From NCBI GenBank assembly GCA_030247885.1, contig JAPDRO010000007.1, forward strand, positions 317,501 to 381,500: a stretch of DNA of 64,000 nucleotides. The letters are read 5' to 3'. Shown in pieces: positions 1,000 through 60,676 of this stretch (position 1 is its first letter; every line of letters begins with the position of its first letter). Source of the DNA: Taxawa tesnikishii (nom. ined.). Lineage: Eukaryota > Ascomycota > Dothideomycetes > Dothideales. The notes beneath the pieces are model-generated. The model was not told where the DNA came from. It saw only the letters and a program-made list of their open reading frames with translations, and ran no database searches. A program made the translations under genes and the position numbers.

Positions 1000-2694
1000 G
1001 GAGAACCCGAGCTTTCTGAGGAACAAGCCGAGGTCGTCAGGTTGATCGTCGAAGAAGAGCGAAACGTGTTTTACACGGGATCCGCTGGGTGTGGGAAGTC
1101 AACGGTGTTGAAGGCGTTCGTCCGGTGTTTGAGGAGTAAAAACAAAAGGATCTGGATCACCGCACCTACTGGCATCGCTGCTCTGACCATCGGGGGACAA
1201 CCATCCATACGTTCGCTGGCTGGGGGTTAAAACATGAACAACAACCTCTCGAAGACGTTGTCAAGGCCAGCAGCGGAGTGATGGTGTGGAAGAGGCTCAA
1301 CGATCTAGACGTTCTCATCATCGACGAAATCAGCATGGTAGGGAGCCACCTCTTCGAGCGTCTCAATGCACTGTTGCAGTACGCTCGTAGAGACAGTCGT
1401 GCGTTTGGCGGCGTACAGCTCGTTGTGACAGGTGATTTCTGTCAACTTCCCCCGTCTGCCCATTCGAATACTGTCTTCGGCATGGCAACGGTCTCGAGAA
1501 GGACAGGCTTACCGGCGTCTACTTTGCCAAGCCGAGGCAGGAGTCTCCGTGTGATTGTGTCTACAAGGACAGTGACAAGTGGGCCTTCCGGAGCGATGTT
1601 TGGGAAGAGTGCGGTTTCCAGCACGTGCATCTCACGGAGATTCATCGGCAGAGTGACAAAACATTCATCGACATTCTTCAGAAGTTTCGCCTTGGTACGA
1701 TGATCACGGACGAGGACCGGAGGATCCTGCTGCATCATCCCGCAGATACGACTGGTGCCATCCAGCTATTCCGCAGGCGGGAAGACGCGCGGCGCCTCAA
1801 TGACCAGGAGTTCGCAAAGCTCAAAACGCGCAATCTCACCTTCAGATGCGCTGACGGGTTCCGGTCGTACGTCTCCAACACGAACCTATCCGCCGAGCAA
1901 GCCGAACGAGCCGAACGAGCCAGACTCGAGCTAGAGAAGGAATACGGCAAGCGATCTGACGAGGACGGGACATTGACAGCATACACGCAGCATCGCTTCG
2001 AACGGGTCCTCGAGCTCAAGTATGGAATGCTGGTCCTCCTCCTTAGCAACCTCGACATCGCCAAGGGTCTGGTCAACGGCAGTCAAGGCACCATCGTTGG
2101 CTTCCGAAGGGTGGACGCCCACGGAATGCCACGGCGCAAGGACTCCAACAAAGAGAGAAAGGATACCAGAAACCGCTTCCTTGACTCGGGCGCCTCCTAC
2201 CTTCTTGGCGATCACGCGGAACGTCGTGAAGCGCAGGTCAGGAGTTTTTCTACAAAACCGAGGACAGGGAGTGGCCCGTTGTGAGGTTCACGAATGGAGT
2301 TACGAAGACCATCTTCCCAGACTGCTCGATTACAAGCATCGGGAGTAAGGGGGCCTATTGCTTAGTTTCACGGACGCAGATCCCGCTCGTAGCGGCGTGG
2401 GCCATCACGGTCCACAAGAGCCAGGGGATGACGCTAGACAGAGTCATCGTAGACTTGAGCCGGAGCTTCGAGGAGGGTCGAGAGTACGTCGCGCTAAGCA
2501 GAGCAAGAGGTCTGGCGGGGCTGAAGGTGACGGGGCTGGGCAAGTGTACAGTGGGCGGGAACGCACAGGTCAAAGAGTTCATGTGGAAAAATTCGGACTG
2601 GCGTGAAAACTGGTTGGGAAACGACTTGGAGTTGACGCACGCTGCTTTGTTTTTAGATACCCAGATGTTGGATGTACAGATTTCGCCATCATGA
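1000..2694 (+). CDS. PIF1-family DNA helicase, reading frame broken in three places
   Basis: This encodes a superfamily 1B 5'-3' DNA helicase of the PIF1 group. Seen in order are the Walker A loop GSAGCGKST, the Walker B region LIIDEISM, motif III TGDFCQLPP, motif IV LTEIHRQ, and the C-terminal motifs TVHKSQGMTLD and REYVALSRARGLAGL. Coding passes through three frames, changing at a G5 run near 1192-1196, near 1466-1474 and near 2241-2242. Each change is what one missing base would cause, the same error seen in essential genes elsewhere in this window, so the gene may be intact in the organism. Residues upstream of about 1000 are open in two frames (249-995 and 628 onward), but I cannot tell which is the true N-terminus. 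Such extra PIF1 copies in fungi are either host paralogues or Helitron-derived. No Rep endonuclease or RPA domain is visible here, so a Helitron is not supported. Confidence 0.7.
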
Positions 2695-2696
2695 GC

Positions 2697-3119
2697 GTTC
2701 GCGCGTATCCGTGTTGTGTTTTCGTTGTGTATGCGGCCGCTAAAATTCTGCGCATCATCTCGTAATCCGGATACAGCTTGCGTAAGCTACACACAAACAA
2801 ATGTAAAAACGATGGCGTTTCGCACAGTTGGCATTGCGGTCGCTGCTCAATTAGATCATAGGTTCCGCTAGACTCCGTTGTTTATAGTCCTCGAACAGGG
2901 TGCATCGGGACAACGTTTGTATGGTAATGCTGTTGCCTTGCGATGGAAATATAAGTTGATGTTTGTAGATTACAGACGGCTGAATTCGGACTGCGAATCA
3001 AGCGAGAGTGGAAGATGTGTGAAGGTTGCCGCGTCACCCGCCCGCTTTCGCCCATTCTCCAATATCCTTTACTCACAAATTGGTGTGGGACACGCCGCCG
3101 GCAGATCCTCCAGCAAGGC
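2697..3119. other. Non-coding stretch between the helicase and the dehydrogenase relic
   Basis: No open frame here has recognisable protein character. It holds the presumed 3' region of the helicase gene and possibly the lost 5' part of the dehydrogenase relic. Confidence 0.5.
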
Positions 3120-3906
3120 AAAGAGCGCTTTGGAGGATGCCAAGTCTGCTGCTTCCAAGTCAAACTACAGCTCCACCCGGCCGACGTGAGCACGATCAAG
3201 AAAGGCTGTGGAGGGCCTCATGGCGCGAGAGGACAGGCTCGATGTCCTGACCAACAATGCCGGAGTGCTGCGTCCCGCTTCTGCTGCAGCGCCTGCTCAA
3301 GGTTTCGAGGCGCAGCTCGCAACGAATGCGCTCGGTCCCTCTCTCCTCAGCCTGCTTCTGCTACCACCACTCTTGCAGAAGACTTCTGCTTCGGCTCTCC
3401 TCGGTTCATTACGCGTGAACTGGGCGGCATCTCGTTGGGCATCGATCTGCACTCTCCTACACCGGAAGGCATGACGTTCGATGCTGCTACGGGTGCTCCG
3501 GTACGGCATGCGGGCCGGATGCGGAACTATGGCCAGTCAAGAATCGCCAACGGCCTTCCGGATTCCGAGCTCGTCAGACGTTATCCGCCTTCTCCATCCA
3601 AGATCGTCACGAACGTGTGAACCCCTGGCAAAGCGAGCTGCAGCATCATGCGTCCAGACTGGAGTCTTTGCTCCTGAACTGGATGCTGTGTCCTGTCGAG
3701 TACGGTACGAACACGGAGCCCTGGGCCGGGTGGAACGGATAGGGCAGGTAGGGAAAAGGAGCTCGGTAGGTATATCTGGCCCGGGGGCGATTTGAAGAAT
3801 TCCGGCGGACGTTGTCTTTCCGTTTCCTCTCTCCTCCCCGCTTACTAGGCTCACGGCAAAGAGTTTCTGGGAATGGTGCGACGCTGAGACGAAGGCCTAC
3901 AAGTGA
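3120..3906 (+). pseudogene. Relic of a short-chain dehydrogenase/reductase
   Basis: Fragments of a Rossmann-fold SDR of the fungal retinol-dehydrogenase-like type lie in order but in different frames. They are a beta-strand region KLQLHPADVSTIKK (about 3165-3210), the NAG motif region RLDVLTNNAGVL (about 3235-3270), ATNALGPSLLSLLLLPPLL (about 3322-3375), the catalytic-loop region RMRNYGQSRIANG (Tyr and the following Lys position, now Arg; about 3517-3555), SELQHHASRLESLLLNWM near 3620-3680, and the terminal FWEWCDAETKAYK before a stop at 3904-3906. The N-terminal cofactor glycine loop is not found. Damage includes one extra base near 3205 as well as missing bases and a lost catalytic lysine. 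It therefore differs from the pure one-base-loss pattern elsewhere and looks like a genuinely dead gene. Confidence 0.7.
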
Positions 3907-4172
3907 GTGTTACTCCGAACCCATCACGGCCAATGTACATTGGAGTCGTCTCGTTACTCGATAATCGATTGTCTTCCGGAGGGTATTATTGTTGGCGAAA
4001 CGGGACGTACTATCGTCGGGCATTGATGAATCACCCCATGCTCCATTGACGCATGTTGAGTGTGGAGAAGGCCAGTCAGAACCACCGAAACGCCGTCGCT
4101 ATGCGGACAGCCATGCCACAAAAACAAGCTCGAGCAGAAATCTCCTTCATGCAGCAGCCCATGGCGTCTCCT

Positions 4173-7929: not shown

Positions 7930-9488
7930 TCACAGCTTGAACCCTCCAGGACAGCCCACCTGGAACAAGCCCTTCGGATCGTATCTCTTGCTTACCTTCC
8001 TCAAGCCCGCCAGGTTCTCCTCTCCGTACCCGGCCAACGGATCTTGATAAGCTTGACAGTAGTTCAAGTACTTGAACGGGTGGTATAGCCCCTGGCCTTG
8101 CTCTCGTTCTCCACGTTCGCGATGAACGACTTGGCTGCCTGCGTCGCGCGCTCGGAGTCTGAGGAGTCGTCCCAGGTGACGGACAGGAGAACGTTGATGA
8201 GGTCCCCATCTGATGCGGTTAAGCCAAGACTGTTGCCGCCGAGTGTTGACGCCTTGCCGGTGACGGCGGGTGGGAGTGGCTGCAAGGCTAAAGAGATGAT
8301 CAAGCCAGGGATGTCTTCAACCTCGTCGCGGGCGTTTTCCCACAGCTTCAACAATGTCTCCAGCAGTGGGAGATTGGCACGGATGGTGGTGGTGATGAAA
8401 ATCGCGCAGGCCCCTCCTTCCAGTGTCGAGCCCATATCGAGCAGCGTGTCGGATAGCTTTGTCATACGGGTGTCGCTGTACGTGGATTCCGTTTCCCTGA
8501 ACTTCTTGAGCGACACCGCCGTCGCGTCGCCGCCTGTGTGGCGTACCGCACCGACGCACAACGATCCAATGTCCGCTTTGAACGCAGCGCTCAAGATGAC
8601 ACTCGCGTACTCGTCGTAGCAATCTCCTGCCGTCGCCAGTTCATGGAAGGCGGCCAGGAGCGCACTCCCTTTCTCATACTTGTAGTAATAGTTCCCCATC
8701 CAGAGCGGCCCCTGTTCGAAGCAGTGTACCTCGAAAGCCGTTACGATACCGAAGTTATTCGATCCTCCCTTGAGCGCGCGCCACAGCTCCGGGTGCGTAT
8801 CCTGGCTTACGGTCAACACCTCGCCGGCCGCGGTGACCATCTCGAAGGTGATGACGTTATCGCAAGCAAACCCTTTCCGTGGTGAAAAGAACGAGATACC
8901 ACCTCCAAGCGTAAGCCCTCCAACACCTACCGAACTCACGCGCCCGCCGGAGACGGCAAGCCCCTCGTCCTCAAGGAAGGCGTATGCGGCACCCCAGCGC
9001 GCACCGGGACCGATGGTGACACGTTCGCGGTCTGCATGGATGCGCACGAAGTCGAGCTTGCGGAGATCGATGGTGACGCCTGCTTCGATGTTGCTCGCTC
9101 CGCCCCAAGTCATGTGGCCGCCACTACGAACGGCGAATTGGACGTTGTGGCCTGCATCACGCACAGCAACGATCGTCTTGATGGCCTCGGCTACATCGGC
9201 TGTAGACGCTGGCTGGACGATGCAGGAGGGAGTGAGGGAGCAGTTTTGCCTGCAGAAGTAGGCGTTTGCGCTGCCGGGGTAGAGCCCTTGGCCGTCAGGG
9301 TACACCACCTTGTCGGACAGAGAAGAGAAGGAGAATGCTTCGCGGAGGAGGTCGGTGGTTTCGAGTTGCGTGGCCGTAGGCTCTGGCGGCGATGGGAGTG
9401 CCCCTGTGACAGACTCTAAGGGTCCTTTTGCATCGCTACTGGGAACCGCAAAGACTGCTGTCGCCGTGTTCTGAACTAGAGCCGACAT
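7930..9488 (-). CDS. FAD-linked oxidoreductase, PCMH/berberine-bridge type
   Basis: This is a single-exon oxidase of the PCMH-type FAD-binding family (6-hydroxy-D-nicotine oxidase and berberine-bridge-enzyme relatives) that carries FAD covalently bound. Seen are PSCIVQPASTADVAEAI, FAVRSGGHMTWGGAS with the His that normally links FAD, ISFFSPRKGFACDNVI, LWRALKGGSNNFGIVTAFE, and the C-terminal BBE segment YHPFKYLNYCQAYQDPLAGY ending KGLFQVGCPGGFKL. The second flavin-linking Cys of bicovalent members is absent (GGRVSSVGVGG), so a single bond is expected. The BBE segment lies in a shifted frame: one base is missing from the C4 run at 8089-8092. With it the protein is 519 aa. No signal peptide is evident. 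Substrate is unknown, and no cluster genes adjoin it. Confidence 0.88.
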
Positions 9489-10712: not shown

Positions 10713-11128
10713 ACCACTGATGGCGGTGTACAACACAACTATTGTCTCCTCAGCCTAAATCTGTGGAGGAGGCTGTACGTTTTGGCAGTCTTCGAAAGAC
10801 AAGCTGCAGAAAAAGGTCCATCGGTTGCATTTGCAGATGTTTTCCGAAGGGGAGCGAAAGGAGGAAGAGGATCGCACCATTTGATGCATGTTGATTGGCA
10901 GACCTGATGACACACATGCGATGTTCACATCACTTTCCACAGGTGCCTACCGGCAATGCGGCCTGCTATTATCGTTGTCTCAGCAGTACTTGAGAAAAGG
11001 TCAAAGTCATCTCCGAACAGGCCGCCATGGCTCCGGATATCGAGTGCTGTTGGTATTCAAAGCTCGGCGGCGGTCCACTGCAATGGTCTACTGATCGACA
11101 ACAACATGGGCTTCCGTTTCCGACCTCA
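10713..11128. other. Spacer between the symporter relic and YTM1
   Basis: I see no gene. It probably includes the 3' UTR of YTM1, which ends at 11129 on the minus strand. Confidence 0.5.
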
Positions 11129-12688
11129 CTATCTGACTGTTTCGCGGTGGATCTGCACCCTCTTGTCCTCGCCCGCGCTCACCAGTCCAATACTCTCGTC
11201 CCACACAACCCCAAACACCTTGACTCCCTCGCCACCCACCGGCCGACCCTTTTCCGTCGCGCCTTCCCGCTCGACCACGAAAACGCTGTCTCCCACCATT
11301 CCTTCATCAATCCCGGTCCCTGCTCTTACACTCCGCACATCCCACACACGCACCGTTCCGTCGTGACTGCCGCTTGCCAGTGCGAAGCTGTTCATTGGAC
11401 TTGGCGCGAGGCTGACCACCGCGTTCTGATGACCGCGCAGAGTCATCACTGCGATGGTTGTCGCCGAGGCGCGTGGATCGATCAGAGTGATGTGTCTTGC
11501 GCTCGTCCCTGCTGCTACCAGATTGACCTCCTGCATCGCGGCCACTGAAAGTAGAGACTGCGCCGTACTTCTCGTGTCGACGCATGTTTGCGTCGGTAGA
11601 TCCCACGTCTTCAGGCTGTGGTCCCACGATGTTGAGTAGGCCACCGTTGAGTCATTGGGCTTGAAGGCGACGGATGAGACTGGTGCCGAGTGGCCGGAGA
11701 GAAGGGCCAGGGGCCCTCTCTGCGGAGCGGTCTTGGACGGGCCAGAGAGCTTTCGTCTCTTGGCTGAAGATATTGGGAGAAGGTTCGAGGGCGCAGTTGG
11801 AGCTGCGGACTTGGTCGTGGACCAAAGCCCTACAGTGTGGTCGGCAGACGCAGACATAATCCGAGATGAAGGCGTGTGGACAGCGAGAGCGTCCACGGAA
11901 GCAGTGTGACCATAAAGTTCCAACGCGGGCGTCAACGTCGCAGCTGCACTCGGACCCTCCGATTCCGTGTAGTTCCACAGTCTCAACGTTCGGTCGAGAC
12001 TGGACGAAACGAGCTGTGTGGGTGACAGAAACCTGGCCGCTTTCACAGAGTTTGTGTGACCGCCCTCTGCACCAGAAGCTGACGTCGCAACAACCTCTCC
12101 GGATGTGTTCCACATGCGCAACACCCCGTCATAACCACCTGACAAGATCCTGTCCTGCTGTGTATAGGCTTCCTTGGCCCATCTTGCCGCGAGCGATGTT
12201 TCAGATAGCACATCCACCGAACTGACCCAGTCATCGTGTTCGAAGCTCGCGACATGCGACGGGGAATCAATGCGCGCACGTATTCGACAGTGAGCGTCGT
12301 TTCGGCGGAGATGCCGTTCGCAGTGAGGAAGTCATCCAGAGATGTGCGCAAGAACTGCCCGTTGACAAGGAACTCGAATGGTATCGGCTGCTCGGTTTCC
12401 AGCAGGCGGTTCACCAGAGTCGAAAGTTGGTATCGGCGGAGTTCTGTGATGCTGTCAGCGACTAAGTTGTGCCGACCAAAGACACTCTTGCTCCCCGCTC
12501 TCAACTCATCCTCCAGAAGAGCAATGGCCGCGGCGCAGTACGCACCAGGTCACCTTACCGGTCGAGACGAGAATTGGCCCAGTATCCTCAGGAAGTTCGA
12601 TGTCCGGACTGCGCGAGGTCAGCTGGATCCTGACCTGCGATGTCCTGTCCGTTGCCATGGTGGACGTTGTCGCAGTCTGTGTGGCCAT
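11129..12688 (-). CDS. YTM1: YTM1, WD40 protein of the PeBoW/Nop7 complex
   Basis: Ytm1 (WDR12) joins Nop7 and Erb1 in 60S ribosome assembly and is extracted by the AAA+ ATPase Rea1/Midasin through its N-terminal NLE/UBL domain. Exon 1 is 12688-12559 ([18 protein letters not shown], then the [15 protein letters not shown] strand). A 115-bp intron follows (12558-12444), then exon 2 from 12443. The NLE domain reads [20 protein letters not shown] and [15 protein letters not shown] repeats follow, with blades such as [47 protein letters not shown] and [12 protein letters not shown]. The two domains lie in different frames. One base is missing from the G4 run at 12261-12264; adding it reads [19 protein letters not shown] and gives 481 aa. 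The gene is essential in yeast, so an assembly error is likelier than a mutation. Confidence 0.95.
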
Positions 12689-23358: not shown

Positions 23359-24589
23359 ATGTCGCTTGTTGCTGGCCCCGGACGCGGCGGCTCCGGTCTG
23401 AACGACCTGCCCGACGAGCTTCAGCTGTGCATCGACAGACACGTTCAGTACATTCAGAGCCTTGATACCGTGCGCGGCACCCAGTTCAGCCTTCCTTGTC
23501 GCTGGAGCTGACGCTGACAGGATAGTAGCGAAGGAATGAGCTCGAGTACTGGTTTACTGAACATCTCCGGATGAGTGGAATCTACTGGGGCCTGACCGCA
23601 CTGCACCTGCTTGGGCATCCTGAAGCGCTGCCTAGACAAGGCGTCCTCGACTTTGTGTTCTCCTGCTTGCACGACAACGGCGGTTTCGGCGCAGCCCCGG
23701 ACATGACCCCCACATGCTATACACCGTCAGTGCTGTGCAGATTTTGGTCACCTTGAATGCTTTGGATGATCTCGAGCGGAGGGTCGAACACGGAAAGGAA
23801 AAGATCGGTCGCTGTATGCCGCAATGTGATATCATCGCATCCGGCCGGCATGGACTGACAGCAGACAGATATCGCAGGACTACAGGATCGCGGCACAGGT
23901 ACCTTTGCCGGCGATAAGTGGGGTGAAACGGACACGCGATTTCTCTACGGTGCCTTCAACGCGCTCTCACTCCTTGGCCTAATGCATCTCGTGGACGTGC
24001 AGAAAGCTGTGGAGCATGTCCGTTCGTGCGCGAACTTCGACGGAGGATACGGGCTGGGTCCCGGAGCAGAGTCGCATTCGGGTCAGATCTTTACCTGCGT
24101 CGGTGCGCTGTCAATAGCCGGAAGACTGGATCTCGTCGACGTTGACAGACTTGGTGGATGGCTCAGCGAACGACAACTGAGCAACGGAGGTCTTAACGGG
24201 CGACCGCAGAAGCTTGAGGATGTCTGCTACAGCTGGTGGGTGATGAGCAGTCTGGCCATGATTGACAGACTGCACTGGATAGATGCAGACAAACTTTCGG
24301 AGTTTATCCTCAGGTGTCAGGTAGGGTGCACGTCCTGTCGTGCAGGCGTAATGCTCACCTTGTGCAGGATCCAGAGCTTGGTGGTATTGCTGATAGGCCG
24401 GGTGACATGGTTGACGTCTTCCATACCGTTTTCGGTGTCGCCGGACTCAGCTTGCTCAAGTACCCAGGCCTTGTGGAGGTTGATCCCAGATAGTGAGTCT
24501 TTCGGTGATGTACGTGGACCGCTGTTTACTAACTACAGAACTGCAGCTGCATGCCACGAGCGGTCACGCGGCGTGCTCTAGGGAAGTGA
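23359..24589 (+). CDS. BET2: Rab geranylgeranyltransferase (GGTase II) beta subunit
   Basis: Bet2 forms the catalytic zinc subunit of RabGGTase with Bet4 and prenylates Rab GTPases presented by REP. Exons are 23359-23469, 23529-23813, 23869-24320, 24368-24492 and 24547-24589. Seen are [18 protein letters not shown] across intron 1, [20 protein letters not shown], the repeat motifs [50 protein letters not shown] (Zn ligands Asp and Cys in [10 protein letters not shown]), [14 protein letters not shown] (Zn-ligand His) and the ending [10 protein letters not shown]. One base is missing from the C4 run at 23695-23698; with it [16 protein letters not shown] reads through and the total is 338 aa, divisible by three. 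The last intron needs the second of two AGs (gaactgcag), because the nearer one would create an immediate stop. Confidence 0.95.
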
Positions 24590-32360: not shown

Positions 32361-33130
32361 ATGCCGTCGCCTGCGGCCCGCCAACGCCTCGTCTCTTCTC
32401 TGTCATCTTTGCGGCCGACTGCTTCCACCCTCTGCAGGTTCAAGGGATCCTGCCCTCTCCGTCAATCGTCGCTTGTCTTGTCCTCGTCCTTCTCGCATTG
32501 CTCCGCCGCCATGAAAGCGCAGAAAGGCGAGATCACGAAAATCACCGACACCTCGACGTCCGAGACGAAATGGGTCGCCCTGCAAAAGATCGATTGGATC
32601 GATCAGAGCGGCAAAGAGCGCATCTGGGAGGTCGCATCACGCAAGACCCGCGGCAAGGCCGGCGTTGATGCAGTCGCGATGGGCAACATCATTCACCACC
32701 CATCCAAGCCTCCGACCACGATCCTGGTACTGCAGTACCGCCCTCCCATCGACAGGATTACGGTCGAATGGCCCGCAGGTTTGGTGGACGCCAACGAGAC
32801 CGTGGAGGAGGCAGCGGTGCGAGAGTTGAGAGAAGAGACCGGATACGAGGGGCGCGTCTTGAGCGTGAGTCCGGTGATTGCGGCCGATCCGGGAATGACT
32901 TCTGCAAACATGCAGCTGGCCATGATGGAGGTGCATCTGAAGGAGGGCGATGCGGAGCCAGAGCAGCATTTGGATGAGGGAGAACACATTGAGCGTGTCG
33001 TGGTGCCGTTGGAAGAGCTGTACGAGAGACTCGTCGAGTACTCGAAAAAGACGGCGTGATGGTATCAGCGAAGCTGTTTCATTGGGCGGCGGGCATGTAC
33101 TACGCGAGGACAACCATGGCGGGGAAGTGA
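32361..33130 (+). CDS. YSA1: Nudix hydrolase, ADP-sugar (ADP-ribose) pyrophosphatase
   Basis: Ysa1-type enzymes hydrolyse ADP-ribose and related nucleoside-diphosphate sugars to AMP and a sugar phosphate. The Nudix box reads GLVDANETVEEAAVRELREETGYEG and fits GX5EX7REUXEEXGU. Upstream WEVASRKTRGKAGVDAVAM and downstream SPVIAADPGMTSANMQLAMM match the family. The first ATG, at 32361, gives a 50-residue Ser/Arg/Leu-rich start that resembles a mitochondrial presequence; a second ATG at 32511 (MKAQKGEI) gives the size of cytosolic members. Both forms may be made. One base is missing from the A5 run at 33045-33049. With it the family C-terminus SAKLFHWAAGMYYAR is restored and the stop falls at 33128-33130, giving 256 aa from the first ATG. 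Confidence 0.9.
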
Positions 33131-38040: not shown

Positions 38041-40655
38041 ATGGCGCTCTTGACTTGGAGCCACAAGGTCAGCTACAAGGCCCAGCAGGGTAAGCAGTCG
38101 CATTCACCGGCGAGACGTGCGCATTGCTGAAGAACACGCAGTGGCTTTCGAGGACTTTATCCGCAATTTCAAATCCGACACCGAAGAGGCCGAGGACGCT
38201 CTGAAGAAGCTCAACCTGAACGAGAACGGCACCGACGACGAGTATGATTTCATGGACGAGTCGGACGATGGAGAAGCTGCGCGGAAGAGCAGCAGGCGCC
38301 AACACTCGAAATCCGGTAGGAAATACATGGACATGCTTCAAAGCGTTGCAGACAGGGAAATATCGCACATCACCATAGAATTGGACGATTTGGATACTGT
38401 ACGATCCGCTGCTGACGAGATTGCATCGAGCCGCTGCTTACAACTATTTAGTACGAGAAGAGTTTGTCGGAAGATGAAGCGCAACTGGATCTGACCCAGT
38501 CGATCAAGTCAAACGCGACTCATTACATTGAGGTCTTTTCCCGTGCCGTCGACCAGCTGCTGCCAGCGCCCAACCGTAAACTCACACTAAACAGCGATGT
38601 GCTCGATATAATAACGACCCAAAGGTCAAAACGTAATCAACAGATGGAAGAACTCCAGGATCATGGTATTGTGGTCGACGGCGCCGAATCGCCATTTCCC
38701 CCAGAGTTGACGCGGAGATACACGTTGAGCTTCAAGCCCAAGAAACCATCCGCGGGATCCAGCGAGGATGAGAAGGACGACAAGGCGCTTGCTGTGCGCG
38801 AGGTGCGCGGAAAGCATCTAGGCAAGCTGATCACTGTGCGTGCCATTGCTATCAGGGTGTCCGACGTGAAGCCTTCCATCCAGGTCAACGCCTATTCTTG
38901 CGACCGCTGCGAGCGGGAAGTCTTCCAGCCGGTCACCAGCAAGAACTTCACGCCCCTCACCGAATGTCCGTCCGAGGAGTGCAAGCAGAACAACTCGAAG
39001 GGACAATTGTTTCTGTCTACTCGCGCTTCCAAATTCTTGCCTTTTCAGGAAGTCAAAGTGCAGGAGATGGCCGATCAGGTGCCGGTTGGCCACATCCCAC
39101 GACAACTCACAGTGCATTGTCATGGAGCGCTTACGCGCCTGATCAACCCAGGAGATGTTGTTGATATCGCCGGCATCTTCCTTCCGACTCCGTACACTGG
39201 CTTCAAGGCGATTCGTGCTGGTCTGTTGACGGACACATATCTGGAAGCGCAGCATGTGCTCCAGCACAAGAAGGCTTACGATTCCATGGTTCTCGCTCCT
39301 TCGACCATCAAGCGGATGGGTGAACTGGAAAGGTCGGGACAGCTTTACGAGTACCTCAGCCGCTCCATCGCGCCGGAAATCTTCGGCCATCTGGATGTCA
39401 AGAAAGCTCTTCTTCTGCAGCTCATCGGTGGCGTGACAAAGGAAATGGGCGACGGCATGCATATCCGTGGTGACATCAATATCTGCCTGATGGGTGATCC
39501 TGGTGTCGCCAAGTCTCAGCTCCTGAAGTACATCACCAAGGTCGCTCCGCGAGGTGTTTACACGACCGGCCGAGGATCAAGTGGGGTTGGTCTTACTGCT
39601 GCGGTCATGCGTGATCCAGTGACGGACGAGATGGTTCTCGAGGGCGGTGCGCTCGTGCTCGCCGACAACGGCACGTGCTGTATCGATGAGTTCGACAAGA
39701 TGGACGATGCCGATCGGACTGCTATCCATGAAGTGATGGAGCAACAGACCATCTCCATTTCCAAGGCTGGCATCACAACAACCCTGAACGCCCGTACCTC
39801 CATCCTGGCTGCAGCCAATCCTCTCTATGGACGGTACAACCCGCGAATCTCTCCAGTGGAGAACATCAACCTTCCCGCGGCCCTGCTCAGCAGATTCGAC
39901 ATCCTATTCCTGATCCTGGACACGCCGACCCGCGACACAGACGAGGATCTCGCACGTCACGTCGCCTACGTGCACATGCACAACGAGCACCCCGAACCCC
40001 CGGCGGCGGTCTCATCTTCAGCCCCGACGAAGTCCGGCAATGGGTCGCACGCGCGCGATCCTTCCGGCCCGTCGTCCCCAAAGCGGTGTCCGACTACCTC
40101 GTCGGCGCGTACGTGCGGATGCGGCAGCAGCAAAGCGCGACGAGAGCGCCAAGAAGCTGTTCACGCACACCTCACCGCGTACCCTGCTCGGCGTGCTGCG
40201 TCTCTCGCAGGCGCTGGCCCGGCTGCGCTTCGCGCACGAAGTCATCACCGACGACGTCGACGAGGCCCTGCGGCTCGTCGAGGTCAGCAAGGCCTCGCTG
40301 TACGACGACGAGCGGGGCCGCGGGAGGAGCGATCTCAGCATCAACAGCCGCATCTTCAACCTCGTGCGCGGCATGAAGGAGAGCGGGGCCGCGGGCACGG
40401 CGGACGGCGCGCCGGGCGAGTTGGACATGCGCAAGGTCAGGAGAGGGTCCTTGCCAAGGGATTCACGATCCAGAATCTCGAGGCGTGTTTGGACGAGTAC
40501 GCGGCGCTGGACGTGAGTATTGCCGAACCCGTTCGCTCGATGACATGGACTGACGCGATCGATCACAGGTCTGGCAGACGGCGGCCGAAGGCTCGCGGCT
40601 CGTTTTCATCGAGACCGGCGGGCACGACGATGCGAACATGGGGGATGAGTTCTGA
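38041..40655 (+). CDS. MCM7: MCM7, subunit of the replicative MCM2-7 helicase
   Basis: Mcm7 is one of six AAA+ subunits of the replicative helicase. Exons are 38041-38089, 38142-38398, 38452-40512 and 40569-40655 (introns of 52, 53 and 56 bp). The protein is 818 aa once three missing bases are counted. It starts [20 protein letters not shown]. The zinc motif is CDRCEREVF plus CPSEECKQN. The AAA+ core shows [14 protein letters not shown] (Walker A), [22 protein letters not shown] (Walker B), [20 protein letters not shown] and LLSRFDILF (arginine finger SRFD), followed by winged-helix residues [20 protein letters not shown] and [19 protein letters not shown]. Frame slips occur at C5 39997-40001, A3 40132-40134 and GG 40440-40441, each one base short. 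The gene is essential in yeast, so the slips are almost surely assembly errors. Confidence 0.97.
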
Positions 40656-42846: not shown

Positions 42847-43301
42847 GCTGTTCGGTCGTTGCTGTGCTGAGAAGTGTGCGGGTCGGCTGGTTCGGTCACG
42901 GAGGAGAGGAGAACATTTGTTGGTTCGGACAATACCCTACCAGCGTATGCAAGAGCAAGAGCTTAACGTTATAGCATTTTGGCATGTGCCATCGCGACGG
43001 ACTTTCCTAGCATGTGGATTAGCAAAGTCCATGACGCTCGCTGTTTTGAGGGCCCACGCGGCATCCCGGCAGAGAGCACCGTCCGCCGTCCGCCCGCGTG
43101 GAAATTCGCCGATGGGGCGAGCCAAGAGATGCCACCCCAAAAATATCAAATACCTTCTTGTGGCTGAAACGTTACCACCTACACCCATCTCGGTGGAGAC
43201 GGTTCGCTAGTTCAAGACAGATCTAGGAGGCGCACCGAGTCGACGATCGTTAGGTGTACTCCCCACAATCACCATCGCCGACACCTCACTCGTCTGCCAT
43301 T
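42847..43301. promoter_or_regulatory. Shared upstream region of CDC43 and the C2H2 gene
   Basis: A 455-bp divergent intergenic region that must hold both promoters. No TATA box or clear motif is seen. Confidence 0.45.
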
Positions 43302-44009
43302 ATGACTTCCCGTTCAGCACCGTCGGATCAACTACAATGCGACATATGCCCCCGGAGATTCGAAGATCAGCAGAAATACAACTTCCATCAGTCGCAAGAC
43401 CATCTCGTTTGCCCCAGATGTACTATGCGAGCCCCCAAGATCCCCGTCCTCCTCGAGCACTGGCGGGAGACCAAGCATGCTCACGGCTGTGAGGACTGTC
43501 TCGTCAGCTTTTCCGACCCTGCCTCGCTGTCACGCCATTTGGAAGGCAACCAAGCATGCCCCGAATGTCACAAGCACTGTGCAAGCGACCAGACCCTCCA
43601 GGAGCACAGGTCTACGCACAGATTGAAATGCCTGTACTGCGACGACGCGTCCTTCAAGACCTTCTCCGAGGTGCTCGGGCACGTCGAGAGCGGCAAATGC
43701 TCGTCTGGAGCCACAGCGTTCGGCATGGCCAACACCGTCGCTCACATCCAGGCGTATGACAGCATGGTTTACGCAATGTCCCCCGAAGTCCAAAACTGCA
43801 TCACCGTGTTCGGTTACGGACCAGACGAACTTGGGAGAATCTACTTCTGCGGCGGATGCACGGCCACTTTCGAGACGTTAAACGAGCTCTTTATACATCT
43901 GGAGACTGATGGAGCGCGGTGCAAGCAGAATGGCAACGCCGGCTATTTGATCCAGTGTTTCGTGGACTCTCTGCGCGAAAAACCCTACCAGGATCCTGGA
44001 GAGCTTTGA
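43302..44009 (+). CDS. Small C2H2-type zinc-finger protein
   Basis: An intron-less frame of 235 aa starts MTSRSAPSDQLQ; earlier codons in the frame lack an ATG. Several Cys/His pairs with finger spacing occur: CDICPRRFEDQQKYNFHQSQ, CEDCLVSFSDPASLSRHLEG, ACPECHKHCASDQTLQEHRS, CLYCDDASFKTFSEVLGHVE, and CGGCTATFETLNELFIHLET, some ending in Cys rather than His. The fingers sit back to back, linked by short CPRC/CPEC turns, and the central region (ANTVAHIQAYDSMVYAMSPE) has no finger. This array is seen in fungal proteins of unknown function; DNA, RNA or protein binding are all possible. Its stop lies only 63 bp from that of the MFS gene on the other strand. Confidence 0.85.
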   Translation: MTSRSAPSDQLQCDICPRRFEDQQKYNFHQSQDHLVCPRCTMRAPKIPVLLEHWRETKHAHGCEDCLVSFSDPASLSRHLEGNQACPECHKHCASDQTLQEHRSTHRLKCLYCDDASFKTFSEVLGHVESGKCSSGATAFGMANTVAHIQAYDSMVYAMSPEVQNCITVFGYGPDELGRIYFCGGCTATFETLNELFIHLETDGARCKQNGNAGYLIQCFVDSLREKPYQDPGEL

Positions 44010-44072: not shown

Positions 44073-45888
44073 CTATCCTGCAATCTCCTTGTGCGTGATA
44101 CCAACCTCCGCATCGTTCTTAGCAACAACGTCGATGCCCTCATCGATGCTGTTGACCCGATGCTCACCCTTAAACGCCTCCACCTTATCCGCATCACCAA
44201 ACACCCTATCCATATGCTCCAGCCCAACCCCTTGGTCTCCGGCCAAAGGAAGAAAACCAGCGCGCATCCAAGCGCGTTGATGGCCACCAGAATCCAGTAC
44301 GCGTTGTGCCCCACATTTTCGAACATGACAGGCCAGGCCTGGTTGATCCAAAGTGTCGTGATCTGCTGTCCGGCCTGAGAAATGTTGATGCCCTTGTCAC
44401 GCAGGTTGGTTGGGAAGATCTCGCTGGCGTAGATCCACGCGCAGGGACCCAGTGCGCCTGCGTAGGCCATTTGGATCACGTAAATGAAGATGACTTGGAC
44501 GATGGAGGCTGCGCGGTTGGGGTGGGCGCCGACTGGGAAGGCGTCGGCGAGGGAGGCGATGACTATGTAGCTGACGACCTGCGTGAAAATGTCAGTAATC
44601 GAACGTCAAGCGTGTCTGTCGTTGGCGTGTTGTTCGTACCATGGTTGCAGAACCACCGATCAAGGTTATCCTACGTCCCCACTTATCGACTCCTCCGGTG
44701 GTGATCAGTGTAGCCCTGTGAATTGACGGTCAGCGGAGGTTGTTGCGTCCGTGGCAAGGAAAAACTCACAGCAAACTCAGAATGCCAGCGACGACGTTGA
44801 GCAGCAGCGACAGCGTCGAAGTGGAGAACCCCAACCCCTCGAACACCGAGATACCGTACAACATCAGGGCACCGATACCCGAAATCTGTCCCAGCGCCAT
44901 GGTCGACATGCCGTACGCGATTCTCTTCCAGACCCAGTACTTTGTGAGGAACTGGCGCCAGGTGTAGTTCTCGTCGTGTTCGAGGCGGTATTGGCGTGCG
45001 GCTTGGAGCTCAAAGAACTCCGCTTGCACGGCTTCGTCCTCCTGTGGCAGCTTGCGGATCTTGGACAGCTCCTTCAGCACGCGTTGCGGCTGGTCCGGGT
45101 GGCGCTCGAGCAGCCAACGAGGTGATTCGGGAATCAGGAACGAGCAGACGATGAGGACGACGCCGGGAACGACCTGCAGTGACGTTGCAATGCGCCACGC
45201 GTTGTCCGCCGTCATCTTTTGGATGCCCAGGCCGACGCACCAGGCGATGAGAACGCCGACTTGGTAGGAGAGCTGCACGAAGGATACGACGCGGCCACGG
45301 ATGAGCGGGGAGCTGACTTCGGCCTGGTATGCTGCGAGGTTTGTGCCGATGCTGCATTGTTCCATCAGCCTTGCCGACGAATCGGATGAGCTCTGGAATA
45401 GGACTCACGTTGCTGTTCCGATTCCTGAGATGATACGGCCAACGACGATCATGGCGAAGTTTGTGGCGCCCGCTTGCAGAGCCACGCCAACCAAGAGCAC
45501 GACGGTGCCGAGTGAGAACGTGTACCGTCGGCCTAGGTACCAGATGAACCACCAGCTGATGAAGAGATTTCCGATCACGTTTCCCAGATTGACCATGCTG
45601 GCGACTACGCCCGACTTCGAGCTGGTGATGGAGAATTCATCGATGAACGCTTGTTCGCTGATGATGATCGTGTATATACCGCTGTCGAAGCCCTGGAAGC
45701 TGTTGCGATCGATCAGTAACGTTCCACAGGCGTCGGGGTAAGGCCGGGAAGACGGCTTCTCACATGTTCGCAATGGATGCAACAGCACAGATCCAGTAGA
45801 TGTACCATGCCGCCTTTGTCTGACCCAGAAACATCTTCTCTCCGGATCTTGAAACATTTGCCACGACGACCTCGGTGTTGCTGGCCAT
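44073..45888 (-). CDS. MFS sugar-type transporter
   Basis: This is a predicted 12-helix sugar:proton symporter of the plasma membrane. Exons are 45888-45764, 45699-45409, 45351-44770, 44715-44640 and 44578-44073 (introns of 64, 57, 54 and 61 bp). One base is missing from the C4 run at 44228-44231; with it the protein is 526 aa. Family signatures are FQGFDSGIYTIIISE (helix 1), VNLGNVIGNLFISWWFIW, LGRRYTFSLGTVVLLVG, GRIISGIGTATIGTNLAAYQ, PLIRGRVVSFVQLSYQVGV, PESPRWLLERHPD, DKWGRRITLIGG, GPCAWIYASEIFPTNLR and WPETKGVGLEHMDRVFG. Without the missing base the end of the protein after PETKG is garbled. Substrate cannot be deduced. Confidence 0.93.
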
Positions 45889-46569: not shown

Positions 46570-49500
46570 TTACTGCTTTGTCGGACCCAGCTTCACCCTC
46601 GTCACACCTTGCCATGCGTCGCGCGCGCTGTCAGTCACCCTATCCACAAACGACTGCAACCACGATGTCCCAAGCTCGTCCGTCTTGTTCAGATCCAATA
46701 ACGCGGCGCCCACTTCTCCACCTGTCAGAATATCGAAAGTCCTTCCTACGACGACATCTTTCTCCTCTTTGGTCGCTTGTGCCTGCAGGGCGTCCCAGTG
46801 CTGCTTGATCTCCCTTCTGAGGACGTCGATGCCTGGTTGGCCGACACGGTTTCCCTTCCGCCGGTTCTTGTTGATGTCGACCGCGATGTTGCAGAACAGC
46901 CAAGCGGCTTTCAAGAAATCAAAGAGCAGGAAATAGCTTCGCATGTACCAGCTCCAGGGAGGCGTTCTGAACTCTTCCCGGCAGAGGTCCCTGTCGAGGA
47001 ACACGCTGATTGGCAACTCCTTGATAGAATTTTGCAAAGCGTCCAGCGATGACGAGAGTTTTTCGGGATTGACGACCTCCTGCGTGAGCTGCAGATTATT
47101 CACGAGGCATGTTGCCTCGAAGAGACAGACCCAGCGAGTACGGAGGGTCTTCTCCATAGGCAGCATGTCCCTCTCGGGCTTTTCTTCTGTGAGGATCCCC
47201 TTGACAACATTGTAAGTTTCGGAGCCGTGAGCCGGCTCCTTGCCGTCTGCTAGTACGGTCCAGGTAATGTCAGCCAGGAGGTTGGTAACCAGCCAAGATG
47301 CCTGTAACTTGTGTCAGCACAATACAGACACAAGAGGCACTCGGTGCTCTCAGTAGCCAGCTGGAACTGGTTGCTAGATTCGTTGATGGAAGCACCGGCT
47401 CAGGCTCTGTTGTACTCACACCTGGGATAATGGCCCCTTGGTGGACAAGCGTTTCGGTGCTAGCCCACCCATGATCTACGCCTTGTCCCTGTACAACACT
47501 GTTGCATCCAAAGTCGAAGCTCATGTTGAAATCTCGACCGTCTCTGGTGTCTTTATACCATGCGCTTGCACCTGTTGACCATCAGACTATGTTTCGGTTC
47601 TGCTTTAGATGTCTCTTACAGTGACACCAGGAAGGGTGAACAACGTCGGGTGAAGTCCGATCAGTAAGTCGAGCGATGCGTCGGCGCTCAAGCATCTGGA
47701 TTCTCCTTGTGACACTGTGCTCTAGCTGCCAACGGAGCTCTTGCAGTTCAAAGAACAGATCGCTTTGGCCGCTCTTCAAGTACTCGTACTGCGTCTCAGC
47801 TAGCTTTGATTCCATCCTCTCAAAGTTCTCGAGAGATTTGCTCAGCATATCAAATGGATCCGCAGAAGTCTTTCCTTTCTTGCTGAAACTGAATGGGTGA
47901 TTGACGGAAATCCGAGTGAACAGGACGTGCGATACTGTTTCTTGCTGTATCTCTTTCACGCTGAGCGATTCGTACTGCTGTGCAGCCAAGGTGTGGAAGC
48001 CGAGCTCGGTGTAGAGATAGACTAGCATGACCTTGGCCTGAAAGGTATCGCCACCTGCATGCTCCAAGAGGCAAGCCGCTTGCAAGAGGTGAGGGAGCTG
48101 AGGATTTGTCAAAGTAAGCCGTATCAAAGCCGAAACTGTCAGGTAACATGCATCGACAGCCGCGTGTCTCACGGAGTCGTTTCCGGCCCGCAACAGTCGC
48201 AAGCAGTTCTTGACAAACGCGGTGACGTAGTCAGGATGAGCTCTGGTGTTGCCGATGGTCAGAAGATATTCAAGCTTCTGTGCATTGATCTCAGAGCGCA
48301 TCCAATAATGACTCTAGAAGGTACGGCGTCAGTTGTCATCTTCAACGTATGGCATACAAAAATGCGCTGGGTGACGTCCTTCGTCTGAGATATCTTTACT
48401 CGCCCGGTGCGAGGAAGAGCGGTGTGCACAACGTGAATGAGGATTTGGTAACACATGTCGTCTTTGTTGAAGAGAGACGTTGCTCCGTCCACGGTTCAAC
48501 ACAAATCCCAACGCAGGCAGACACTGTAAGGCCGTAGAGAACAATCGAGAAGAAACGAATGGCACTTACCTTGGACAGCAGCGCGTCTTGTTCAGCTTTG
48601 ATGGAGCGTACTGATTGCTCGATGCGTCTCCTAAGATCAGCCTGTGCAGTGGTGGGGAGCTGAACCACGAAGTCTCTGATGTCTGTGAAGCAGAAAGTCT
48701 GATCTTGGTAAGCATCAAAGTAAGCTTGCATGGCGTCCAAGGTGTTCGTGAAATTGGACGCCTCATCTTGACTCTCCGCGTGCAGGTGAAGGCCGATCAG
48801 CGCGAGTTTTGCGGGTCGAACTCCTTCAGCGACAGCTTCCGCTAGAAGTGGCGCAATTTCGAATGTTTTGCCTGTGCCGATGCATGCTTGCAGATAGCCA
48901 TTCCATACAGACCAATCATCGCGATGACTGGTAATGTTAGTGAACTGCATCGGCATCAGAAGTACAAAACCTTACCTGAAGCTTAGCCTCTTACCCTCCT
49001 CGTCATGTGTTTCCTTCTCTAGAAGGAAGGAGCAACGGATGCTGAGTTCATTCCATCTCTTCGTCTTGATCAAAGCGTCGATCATGGATCTCTCCGGGAT
49101 AAACGCTCCGATATTAAAGTCTGTGATTCGCTCGTCTTTTCCTTGCCGGCGCAGAACCTGCATGATCAAAACTGCCTCTGCTCGATTCTCAACAGAAGCC
49201 AGCTTTAGCATACGGGCAGCCAGCTCAAGGTGTCGGCCGGCCGTCTCTTCATCTTTTGCAACTTCCCTACAAGCTGCTGAAGAGCGATGAGGGCATACAG
49301 CCAGGCGCGCTTTTTCGGAGACTGCCTTTTCAATTCCATAACAGCCTACGAGATAGCGTTAGCCGGTGGTTGAAGCGTTATGCACGCATTAGCCGTACAG
49401 AATTTGCGTCCTGCCATCTCTGATGCGACATAGCCTGCCTGAGACGAAGCTCGTTTGCAGCGATCGGATTTCCGCACTGCTTTGCAGCATTGGACCAGAG

Positions 49501-54413: not shown

Positions 54414-54972
54414 TGCGACTGACGGATGCCTCTGAGGCGGCAGGATCAGAAGAGAGGAGAGGGTGGGTTAGGGTGGTGTCGCCGTGTCTCTGGCAGCTGG
54501 AAGTGTACGGTACAGAGGCGGACTGGGAGATGTTGGCTGCTTCGACTTGCGAGCAAGTGGCCCGAGCGCCGTGGTCAAAACGACATTCCTCCTCTGATTG
54601 GCCGGACCGCCAGGTCAACTTGCACAATTGCACAAACGATTCGTGCTGTCCACCGAACACCAGCACGAACACAAACACAAACAAGAACACGAACACAAAC
54701 ACAAACATAGTGCTGTAGGATAGAAGATTGCTTGTTGGCTGCCCATGTACCGCGACAAGTACAAGACGCGAAGAACCCGGCCGGCACGAGTGCTCCGAAT
54801 TGCATCTTCTGAGCACCGCGTGTATCGAAAGAGCACTTCACACAAGCTTGGCGCGCGTACCGCATCTGCATCTGGATCTGGATCGAGCTAGTTGTGTCTG
54901 ACGCTGCTGCCTTCCACACTCACTCGCAAAATGATATTAACATTATAACCAATAGCGGCCTACACCTTTGAC
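54414..54972. promoter_or_regulatory. Divergent region between cytochrome c1 and the HTH gene
   Basis: A 559-bp shared promoter region. It contains an A/C-rich tract of acaaac and gaacac units at about 54655-54712. A gattggccgg at 54596-54605 contains the ATTGG core of a CCAAT box facing cytochrome c1, which would suit HAP-complex control of a respiratory gene; that link is inference. Confidence 0.45.
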
Positions 54973-56149
54973 ATGGCTCTCACAATGCACCCCGAGCCCA
55001 ACGCCAGCCCCGTCGAGGTTCCGGAAACGAACAACGAACAAGCTCCTGCTCCTGCTCCAGCTGCAGCACCAGCCCCAGCCCCGGTCGACCCGCTCACACT
55101 CCCACCACAGAAGCGCCCTCGCGTCGCCGTCTCTCAGGCCCAGAAAGCAGCCTTGCGCGCCTACCGCCGCGAACACCCCGAGTTGAGCCAGGACAGGATC
55201 GCAGAATGGTTTCGCGCCCACTACGGCCAGAAGGCCACCCAAGGCCAGATCTCGAATTGGCTTTCCCCCAGTACGCCTACCTCGACGAGCTCGCTGAAGC
55301 TGGCGACTTGCGTCTGGGGAACAAGAAACGACGTCCCGAACGGTGGCCGGAGCTGGAACGCCCGCTGCGGTCGTGGCATTTCGAGGAAGAGGAACAGGGC
55401 GTCAAGGTGACCGGGGATATGCTGCGCGCACAGGCGGCCGCATTCTGGCCGCAGTGTTATCCTCAGCGCGAAGTGCCGGGCTTCAGCAACGGATGGCTTG
55501 CGGGATACAGGGAGAGATACCGGGCGCATAAGCAGCAGAAGACGAGACGGGCTGACAGAGGTGCCGATACCGCAGACACGAGCGCTGCGGACGATCCTAT
55601 GCGCTGGCATGCGCAACCGGACATCTACGAGACTCCACCGGTAGGTTTCGTCGTGAGCAAACGCGTTTCGCGTTGCTGAACTCAGATCTAGCAACTCCAT
55701 TACTCCCAGCCTGCGAACTTGACCAATTCGACTCCGACTTCGAATGAACCTGAGGGAATTCTGCCCGCGTTGAGCGAAGCTGCTCGTCTCGAATCCACCG
55801 AAACGCCCGCGGAAAGGCCGTCGTGGGCTGGCGACGCAATAGCCCACGCATCCCCTACGTCTACGTCATTGTCAAGGTTGGGACTGCCGAACGGCCACCG
55901 CCAAAGGACAGTGGGATCGCCATAGAGCTAGGCACTGCATTCACCAATCTCCGAGAAGCAAACAAGCATGCCAGGGAGCTGTTCGAAGACGAAGTCTCCC
56001 AGACCCAGGGACCGTACGGCAGCATTCTGGAACAACGTTCGGAGATACTGACCGAGACGTTTCAAACAGACGGCGGAGTGAACTTGAAGTGTGGGAATCC
56101 GGAGCATGGCGGGTGTACGGTCTACGTGCAGAGGACAGAACTCAGATGA
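54973..56149 (+). CDS. CENP-B-type HTH protein with a second C-terminal domain
   Basis: An Ala/Pro-rich start leads to a helix-turn-helix of the CENP-B/ARS-binding-protein N-terminal type (SQAQKAALRAYRREHPELSQ, DRIAEWFRAHYGQKATQGQI, SNWLSPQ). A second HTH-like or CENPB half follows (GVKVTGDMLRAQAAAFWPQC, FSNGWLAGYRERYRAHKQQK). After a 69-bp intron (55641-55709), a Thr/Pro linker leads to RIPYVYVIVKVGTAERP, LGTAFTNLREANKHARELFE and CGNPEHGGCTVYVQRTEL, a compact alpha/beta segment seen at the end of other fungal proteins. One base is missing from the C5 run at 55265-55269 and probably one at 55811-55812; with both the protein is 369 aa. No DDE transposase domain is present, so this is a domesticated DNA-binding protein or a host regulator. 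Confidence 0.7.
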
Positions 56150-58060: not shown

Positions 58061-59275
58061 ATGGATCTGGTCAACCAGTAAGTCCCGCGCTCTCCCCTTC
58101 CCTCCTTACGACCCATTGCGCGTTGCAAGAATCAGAGCCATGTCTGAAGACTGTACATTCGCTGACATCGTCTCCAGCCTCAGCGATAGATTGCTGTTCG
58201 CCATCCCCAAGAGTGCGCAACCCTCGTACCCAATTGCCTCATCCCCGCGCGCATGCTGACCCCATTCTCGCAGAGGGTCGCCTGCAACAAGCGTGCCTTG
58301 ACCTGCTCCTTGGCTCCGACATCCAGTTCCACCGTCATTCGCGCTTGGATATCGCCCTCGTCAAGAACCTGCCCATAGCCCTCATCTTCCTGCCCGCAGC
58401 CGACATTCCCACCTTCGTCGGCGAGGGTAGAGTCGATCTCGGCATTACAGGCCAAGATGTGATCGCTGAACATCAAGCATTGACCCCGCCCACCGACACA
58501 ACCGGTTGCGAGGAGGTCATGAACCTCGAGTTTGGAAAGTGCAAACTGCAGGTGCAGGTGCCGGAGAAGGGAGACATCACATCGCCGGAGCAGCTGATCG
58601 GAAAGAACATTGTCACGAGCTTCACGAGTCTGGCTGAGGCCTACTTCCGGGAGCTGGAGTCCAAGGACGGCCAGGCCGAGATCAACGGTGAGGGCAAGAG
58701 CAAGTTGAAGACGAACATCAAGTATGTTGGCGGCAGTGTCGAAGCTGCGTGCGCACTGGGTGTTGCAGACGGCATTGTAGATCTCGTCGGTGAGTCAATG
58801 ACCCGGGAGAACTGCGTGAACTCGCGCTGATTGGGGAATAAGAGTCTGGAGAGACGATGCGTGCAGCTGGCCTGAAGGCTATCTCGACGGTCGTCGAGAG
58901 CACCGCGGTGCTCATCCGCTCAAAGCACCCATCAGACCCCAAGCTCATCGACCTTATCACCGCAAGAATACGCGGTGTGATCAGTACGTACTTTGTATCC
59001 TCCTCCTCGTCCCATCAAAGCTGAATTGTCGTCTTCCAGCTGCACAAAAGTACGTCCTCTGCACTTACAACGTCGAGCGGTCCGTTCTGGAGAAGGCGAG
59101 CAAGGTGACCCCTGGCAAGCGTGCACCCACGGTCAACAGTTTGGAGGAGTCCGGCTGGGTGGCCGTCAGCGCCATGGTTTTGCGCAAGGACATTGCTACC
59201 GTCATGGACGATCTGACCAGCCTGGGCGCCTGCGACATTCTCGTCACTAAGCTCGAGAACTCGCGGACAACATGA
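58061..59275 (+). CDS. HIS1: ATP phosphoribosyltransferase (histidine pathway, first step)
   Basis: His1 joins ATP and PRPP to give phosphoribosyl-ATP, the committed and feedback-inhibited step of histidine synthesis. Exons are 58061-58077, 58178-58212, 58274-58789, 58843-58983 and 59040-59275 (introns of 100, 61, 53 and 56 bp), giving 314 aa, the long-form HisG size. The first two exons are tiny (17 and 35 nt) and encode MDLVNHLSDRLLFAIPK. Then come GRLQQACLDLLLGSDIQFHR, RLDIALVKNLPIALIFLPAA, DIPTFVGEGRVDLGITGQDV, YVGGSVEAACALGVADGIVD and LVESGETMRAAGL, the PRPP-binding region. The C-terminal regulatory ACT-like domain shows YVLCTYNVERSVLEKASKVT and MVLRKDIATVMDDLTSLGAC. The frame is intact. 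Confidence 0.97.
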
Positions 59276-59553
59276 TTGATCTCGGTGTGTCTCCTTGCCA
59301 TCGAAAGCATATGTTTGGGCGTTGGGAACCAATGCGGAGTAAGAACACGTCCGGCGTACGGCGTTTTCGAGTGTTGGTGTGAGGTGTGGCTCTGTACGCC
59401 GAAAAAGTGCATAGAAGGATAATACACTGCGCTCACGTCTTGACATATAGCTGAGCTAGACAAGACATGATGCATGTTTAGAGAACTGCAACGTGTCGCT
59501 TTTTGTACAGCGTCGTCATGGTTTCTTTCCCATCTTTTCTTGGCACGCTGCAA

Positions 59554-60676
59554 TCATGCCGACTGTCTTATGAGCTTCGCAATATGCTCACTTATGAACT
59601 TCTTATCATCCTCCGTCCCACTTCCACCACCAGCCACATGGCCCCAGATAGTCTCGACGACCTGCAACTCGCCGTCCTTGAGATGCTTGACTTCCTCCTC
59701 GCTATCCTCGGGTCTTCATTTGCTTTGTCAGCTCATCATCTGTTCGATCGAATCGACTCGGCGACTTACGGGAAATACTGATCCGTACGAGTGGGCATGA
59801 TCAGACTCTTTGCCTTTATCCTACCCAAAGTCTTGGCCAGATCGCCCTTGTCCTCCGGATAGTAGACGGTGATGTCGCCATGCTGCCACGTCCACGTCAA
59901 GCACAGCAGATCATTCGCATCGTCGCCACCGCCCCACCACGCATCAAGGTACTCCTCCAGCGACCCGAAGCCCAGCGTGCGCCACTGCTCCTGCCGGAAC
60001 CAGGCCTGGCACAGCGCCCAGGTGCTGTACACCCTACTGAACGCCCTCGTCCCCTTCTTCACCGGCTCCTTGTAGTGTCCGTCGTGGAAGTCCACCGCCG
60101 TCGTCAGCGCCGCCTTGGGGCCCTCGAGGAAACACCAGTTGTGCCACGAGGTGCGCGCGGAGCCTGCGAGACAGGCCATGCGCTCCACGAAATCCGGGTA
60201 CAGCGCCGCCATGTGGTAGGCCTGCTGCCCGCCCATGCTGAACCCGATGTACGCGTGCAACTTCTTCACCCCCAGGTGCTCGCACAGCGCGTGTTGCAGT
60301 CGGACGTTGTCCTCGTAGGTGACGTGGGGAAGCGCGGGCCGTCGAACGGGGCGGGTTGGTTCGAGGGCGATGAGGACTCGGTGCCGCCGAGGAGCCCGAC
60401 GATGATGATGTAGTATTTCTCTTGCGGGATGGGGAGGCCGGAGAGGACTGAAGAGTCCGTGTTCGAGTAGAGGTACGGCGAGGTGTTCTCGAGCGTGCCT
60501 CCGAAGCAAGTCGGCATCATGACGGCTGGGTGCGAGGGGTCGCCGAGTGCCCAGTAGGCGAGTCTGGCCGGGAAAGATGTCGAGGGAGGTTCGGAGCGAG
60601 GGGAGAGCGTGAGGGTGTGGTGAAAGTATTGCGTCTCCGGCATCTTGGCGAAGTAGCTGGGTCGTTGGCGTCCCAT
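59554..60676 (-). CDS. Alpha/beta hydrolase of the homoserine O-acetyltransferase-like family
   Basis: Exons are 60676-59770 and 59713-59554 (intron of 56 bp). One base is missing from the G4 run at 60326-60329; with it the protein is 355 aa. Seen are PARLAYWALGDPSHPAVMMP, TCFGGTLENTSPYL, EKYYIIIVGLLGGTESSSPS, NVRLQHALCEHLGVKKLHAY, the nucleophile elbow IGFSMGGQQAYHMAALYPDF with Ser in GFSMGG, and the C-terminal acid/His region SLIMPTRTDQYFPPEDSEEE and VETIWGHVAGGG. This layout is that of MetX-like (homoserine acetyltransferase) hydrolases, which in fungi include enzymes with other substrates. The start may be 60676 (MGRQRPSYFAK) or 60643 (MPETQYFHHTL); family members usually start near the second. 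Confidence 0.9.

Follow-up and report, generated by a model that had tools for sequence, protein, structure and literature searches.

Residual consensus error in homopolymer runs very probably explains the broken reading frames of conserved genes in a Taxawa tesnikishii assembly

Introduction

The closest described parallels to the sequence studied here come from assemblies in which the lengths of homopolymer runs are misjudged. Extracts of the report on a nanopore-only assembly of the fungus Drechmeria coniospora place most of the inspected errors in homopolymers, where they shifted the reading frames of conserved genes, and describe such run-length errors as correctable by short-read polishing (PMC7500977). 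Excerpts of the Homopolish study state that polishers leave systematic nanopore homopolymer insertions and deletions (indels) that shift frames; the table excerpted there gives 538 insertions and 2417 deletions for Pseudomonas aeruginosa after Racon, and insertion-rich outcomes along other paths (14394 to 439 for Flye alone and 704 to 324 for Racon plus Medaka) (PMC8011154). For errors of long-read assemblies that fragment genes, a tool has been described as well (PMC12007338). Here we examine a 64,000-nucleotide stretch of the Dothideomycete Taxawa tesnikishii (nom. ined.), hereafter the window (positions 317,501-381,500 of contig JAPDRO010000007.1, or G000:C32:317501-381500 in our numbering; assembly GCA_030247885.1, 29,367,862 bases in 34 contigs), in which conserved genes, among them MCM7, lose their reading frame by single bases. 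The genes present (MCM7, Mad3/BUB1, YTM1-like, NatB) and their introns are those of a eukaryote, and probably of an ascomycete fungus.

The extracts of the D. coniospora report resemble our case in that homopolymer errors alter the reading frames of conserved genes in a fungal assembly, and differ from it in that polishing there added more insertions than deletions and run length was more often over-predicted, whereas losses dominate here (PMC7500977). The Homopolish excerpts share with our data both the frame-shifting homopolymer indels and the excess of deletions that follows some polishing paths; other paths in that study were insertion-rich, however, and its counts were made against known references, while ours are reference-free (PMC8011154). 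We hold with high confidence that a fraction of the homopolymer runs of the T. tesnikishii assembly systematically lack one base in the consensus, most likely through residual long-read consensus error, and that the genes of the organism are intact.

Results

Losses of single bases greatly outnumber gains, and they do so throughout the sampled assembly. We trained a codon-position hidden Markov model (HMM), in which GT-AG introns are modeled explicitly and the loss and the gain of a base carry the same penalty, on 281,150 bases made up of the window and a further 27 loci, these 27 lying on 11 of the 34 contigs; a locus of 25.7% G+C (L019) was excluded from all HMM work, and the counts reported are those obtained at a rate of 3e-4. 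Over the 36,453 coding bases of the window the model called 11 losses, or 0.30 per kb of coding sequence, and not a single gain, in agreement with the original prediction that every break was a loss. The other 27 loci, with 118,072 coding bases, yielded 30 losses (0.25 per kb) and 8 gains, so that the 28 loci, 281 kb together, hold 41 losses against 8 gains, and losses outside the window were seen in 15 of the 27 loci and on all 11 sampled contigs. When the penalty was changed about 30-fold over four values, the window gave 9 to 11 losses and no gains, with 9 losses and no gains at the strictest, and the other loci gave 30 to 32 losses and 6 to 10 gains. Five of the 8 gains lie within 100 bases of the end of a modeled gene or of the locus, against 2 of the 41 losses. 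Because the density of breaks is similar elsewhere, we rejected the idea that the window is unusual, and what had been described as window-wide is a property of the other loci as well. This similar rate in other stretches of the assembly also means that the breaks are almost certainly a matter of sequencing error and not of biology.

When the HMM was run on synthetic genes without introns that had been generated from the model itself, it made no false call over 97.8 kb and detected 63 of the 72 bases dropped at random, a performance that is an upper bound because real genes are harder for the HMM.

The losses are concentrated at the longer homopolymer runs. Each event was located as a posterior over positions and compared with 1000 shuffles, in which the same posteriors were placed randomly in coding sequence. 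Runs of at least four bases received 0.157 of the posterior mass of the losses, versus 0.033 +/- 0.013 in the shuffles, none of which reached the observed value; the 11 events of the window alone placed 0.152 of their mass there (0/1000 shuffles). The gain-type events (n=8) showed no enrichment at runs of at least four (0.019; 604/1000 shuffles). In a synthetic control of 300 sequences with random drops, 0.046 of the mass fell at runs of at least four against a background of 0.036, and the method of localization therefore contributes little bias of its own. The longer runs hit by losses are mostly of G or C (posterior mass 4.7 versus 1.7 for the other bases).

The dependence on run length is steep. 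An expectation-maximization (EM) fit to 40 losses and 7 gains, one of each having been dropped for its position at a gene edge, assigned about 12, 0, 4, 16 and 8 losses to observed runs of one to five bases, respectively (bootstrap 5-95% ranges of 3.8-18.4, 0-3.2, 0-11.7, 10.1-21.8 and 3.8-12.5). Per observed coding run, this corresponds to loss rates of 0.00013, 0, 0.0009, 0.019 and 0.056. The original prediction that the breaks nearly always lie in runs of one base thus survives as a statistical statement about runs of four and five; it fails as a general rule, since some losses fall outside runs and the mass at runs of at least two does not exceed chance (0.598 versus 0.573; 178/1000 shuffles).

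For evidence from protein profiles in the genes of the window, the stop-free segments on either side of each break were searched separately; a profile match continues from frame to frame in MCM7 and in the PIF1-like, BET2-like and hydrolase genes, and arithmetic on the segment coordinates gives, at each profile-supported break, a shift of the codon register by one base in the direction of a loss. MCM7, on the forward strand, is broken three times. Its first frame matches residues 98-627 of yeast Mcm7 as far as 39996, and MCM_lid is taken up in the next frame from 40029 (break at 39996-40029; HMM 39996). At the second break (40117-40139; HMM 40117), MCM_lid 2-39 in the second frame and 35-86 in the third meet at 40139, and the third-frame piece matches yeast Mcm7 670-755. 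At the third (40440-40447; HMM 40440), the first frame again carries the coding signal, as three single losses predict; the last short piece in that frame scores -1.8 bits, which is not significant.

In the PIF1-like helicase gene (forward strand, break at 1188-1200), the PIF1 profile is matched over 2-70 up to 1200 and over 67-156 in the next frame from 1188, around a G5 run at 1192-1196 (HMM 1193). Two further losses on the forward strand had gone unlisted in the original prediction: one within the PIF1 gene region (2200-2281; HMM 2241) and one just 3' of it (3300-3400; HMM 3340), which is poorly localized, over about 66 effective positions. The alpha/beta hydrolase (MetX-like; reverse strand, 60323-60353) matches NF005757 over 29-102 and then over 93-290 in the next frame, at the run 60326-60329 (HMM 60326). 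In the BET2-like geranylgeranyltransferase beta subunit (forward strand, 23690-23714), successive pieces cover Prenyltrans 20-78, 66-98 and 113-258, the first change of frame falling at the run 23695-23698, and the middle piece has four matches in the PDB, each of them a geranylgeranyltransferase beta chain; the HMM made no call at this break.

Two genes have successive domains divided over two frames. The YTM1-like gene (reverse strand, 12250-12325) carries NLE in one frame and WD40 repeats in the next, with a run at 12261-12264 (HMM 12253), and the CENP-B/transposase-like helix-turn-helix (HTH) gene (forward strand, 55252-55343) carries HTH_ABP1_N in one and HTH_Tnp_Tc5 in the next, with a run at 55265-55269 (HMM 55252). 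The latter gene, at 54949-55676, may be a pogo-type transposase that has been domesticated or has decayed. In the Mad3/BUB1-like gene (reverse strand, 31534-31543), Mad3_BUB1_I ends at 31543, after which the coding signal lies in another frame (run 31534-31537; HMM 31536). The sugar transporter of the MFS family (reverse strand, 44224-44231; HMM 44224) matches Sugar_tr to position 443 of 452 and has its C-terminal tail in another frame; the tail has no relevant family match in its own right. This gene is adjoined on the opposite strand by a C2H2 zinc-finger gene (43254-44006, forward strand; PF13894, E 3.9e-13).

Three genes are read as broken at sites where the HMM called no change of frame. 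In the FAD-linked oxidase (reverse strand, 8079-8117), a BBE-like C-terminal reading shifts frame near the run 8089-8092, the second-frame piece having a sub-threshold match to BBE 18-39 (E 0.0095) and the tail no PDB match. The Nudix hydrolase (forward strand, 33045-33056) matches NUDIX over 17-123 of 134 before an A5 run, after which a C-terminal reading continues in another frame in a piece with no relevant family match. The MDM20-like NatB subunit (reverse strand, 49253-49267) changes frame near the run 49265-49267 as judged from its reading frames; the pieces around the break have no relevant family match, and the NatB_MDM20 profile is matched only farther down the gene. The Nudix and MDM20 breaks are read from the translations.

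The original prediction spoke of at least twelve conserved genes that lack one base, and its list in fact comprises 11 genes and 13 sites. Base and length were correct for all ten runs to which it had assigned coordinates. The HMM recovered 9 of the 13 sites in 7 of the 11 genes (PIF1, YTM1, Mad3/BUB1, the three sites of MCM7, MFS, HTH and hydrolase), at most 13 bases from the run where one had been given; the three MCM7 sites, which came without coordinates, were matched by number. The oxidase, BET2, Nudix and MDM20 sites were not among the HMM calls.

The locus left out of the HMM work (L019, G000:C4:20001-30000) spans 10 kb, has a G+C content of 25.7% and almost lacks CpA and TpG: its (CpA+TpG)/(ApC+GpT) ratio is 0.02 and its TpA/ApT ratio 1.85, compared with 1.18 and 0.59 in the window. 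This composition resembles the outcome of extreme repeat-induced point mutation.

Discussion

The bias toward losses, the bias toward runs, the steep dependence on run length, the spread over the 11 sampled contigs and the breaks in MCM7 together best fit under-calling of homopolymers, which the original prediction had named as the simplest reading. Two corrections to that earlier account follow from our data: some losses lie outside runs, and the under-calling is not specific to the window. We propose that about 2% of the observed four-base runs and about 6% of the observed five-base runs in coding exons would be under-called, most likely through residual long-read consensus error left by polishing, and that this error would extend across the sampled loci of the 29.4 Mb assembly at about one single-base loss per 3-4 kb of coding sequence, while in the organism the genes would be intact. 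The frame breaks are in the file and almost certainly not in the organism; we infer that the reads or RNA would carry longer runs and that the underlying data are incompletely polished long reads.

Several observations weigh against this account. Eight gain-type breaks occur outside the window, 12 of the 27 other loci are without any loss, and the EM fit places about 12 of the 40 losses at single bases (3.8-18.4) and 1.6 of the 7 gains at runs of five (0-3.5). The same HMM applied to 150 kb of Escherichia coli K-12 called 28 losses and 19 gains. Because some of these events fall at annotated junctions between genes, for instance where genes abut at L029:1807 and 2875, E. coli is not a clean control for specificity, and we found it unusable as one. 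A gain-type event at L031:36235 lies within prfB, which is annotated as joined from two pieces and which we take to be a known frameshift gene.

The spectrum of run lengths, computed without the overlapping loci L036/L037 and L038/L039 (the latter pair inside the window), tells in both directions. In coding exons the runs nearly end at five bases: they continue from five to six in 3 of 79 cases for A/T and in 0 of 68 for G/C, as against 139 of 505 and 11 of 78 in the 150 kb of E. coli K-12, where regions were not split. This cut-off is consistent with under-calling, and part of it may be due to selection. Non-coding G/C runs have a weaker cut-off than coding ones (6 of 81), and non-coding A/T runs have none, continuing from five to six in 29 of 146 cases versus a fraction of 0.224 from four to five. 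An absolute ceiling on run length is therefore unsupported, and a strict limit of five bases as the fingerprint of one platform lost force when runs were counted separately for each region and base. An 18-base C run at L028:9908-9925 likewise stands against such under-calling; it is the sole run of at least nine bases in 217 kb surveyed beyond the window and L019, and may be either a genuine microsatellite or an artefact of polishing.

A different origin for the contracted runs would be real mutation, in a mismatch-repair-deficient or decaying lineage whose genes are truly broken. Slippage likewise favors runs, with a rate that rises with run length as measured here, and we nevertheless regard this origin as very improbable. 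MCM7 and YTM1 are essential in yeast. MCM7 is broken three times, and a DNA search of the assembly with this gene returned, besides the gene, only weaker matches (67-73% identity) at other MCM places, which we take to be other MCM genes, and found no near-identical second copy, although a diverged copy would escape such a search; the YTM1-like gene was the sole match to itself, with the same limit. As far as DNA search can tell, and given their essentiality in yeast, neither gene is of the dispensable or duplicated kind expected of a pseudogene. MCM domains occur at six places in the assembly. At a second of these (C3:450227-450900, locus L032) the domain is split over frames, with overlapping pieces, and two HMM losses lie on the strand of the gene, one in the domain and one about 170 bases past the domain start, so that two of the six MCM genes are broken in the stretches examined. 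Breaks near the MCM loci L035 and L036 lie on the strand opposite to the MCM gene and were rejected as MCM breaks. The coding signal, moreover, is picked up in another frame past the HMM-called breaks, and with losses at one per 3-4 kb of coding sequence, a large share of the genes of a probably haploid genome would be broken.

Programmed or tolerated -1 ribosomal frameshifting, by which the frames would be restored in translation, is less probable again. All 11 HMM breaks of the window do require a shift in the same direction. A standard XXXYYYZ heptamer, however, lies within 9 bases of none of the ten runs given with coordinates (the MCM7 sites being outside this test), the sites vary in base, length and context, and breaks are similarly dense at other loci.

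Unrecognized introns or errors in the gene models deserve as little credence as frameshifting. The genes do contain introns, and a first version of the HMM, in which introns were modeled crudely and the penalty was stricter, accounted for more of the breaks with no change of frame, calling 12 losses and 2 gains overall and 5 breaks in the window, all losses. Against this, profile positions run on with no spare DNA between them, the PIF1 pieces overlapping at 1188-1200 and the MCM_lid pieces meeting at 40139, and the HMM with explicit splice signals still favors changes of one base, which are mostly losses and enriched at runs. Least credible of all is a genome-wide tolerance of -1 shifts, under which the file would give the runs at their true length and the fungus would decode hundreds to thousands of genes by one-base backward slips at homopolymers.

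Under-calling of homopolymer runs in the consensus, as we understand the breaks, is a matter of data quality only, in which automatic gene calls would be truncated. If the rate observed applies to the whole assembly, and if its coding share is about one half, as it is in the sampled loci, exons would contain several thousand losses of single bases; gene calls, counts of pseudogenes and claims of gene absence based on this assembly would then be unreliable unless it is polished with accurate reads.

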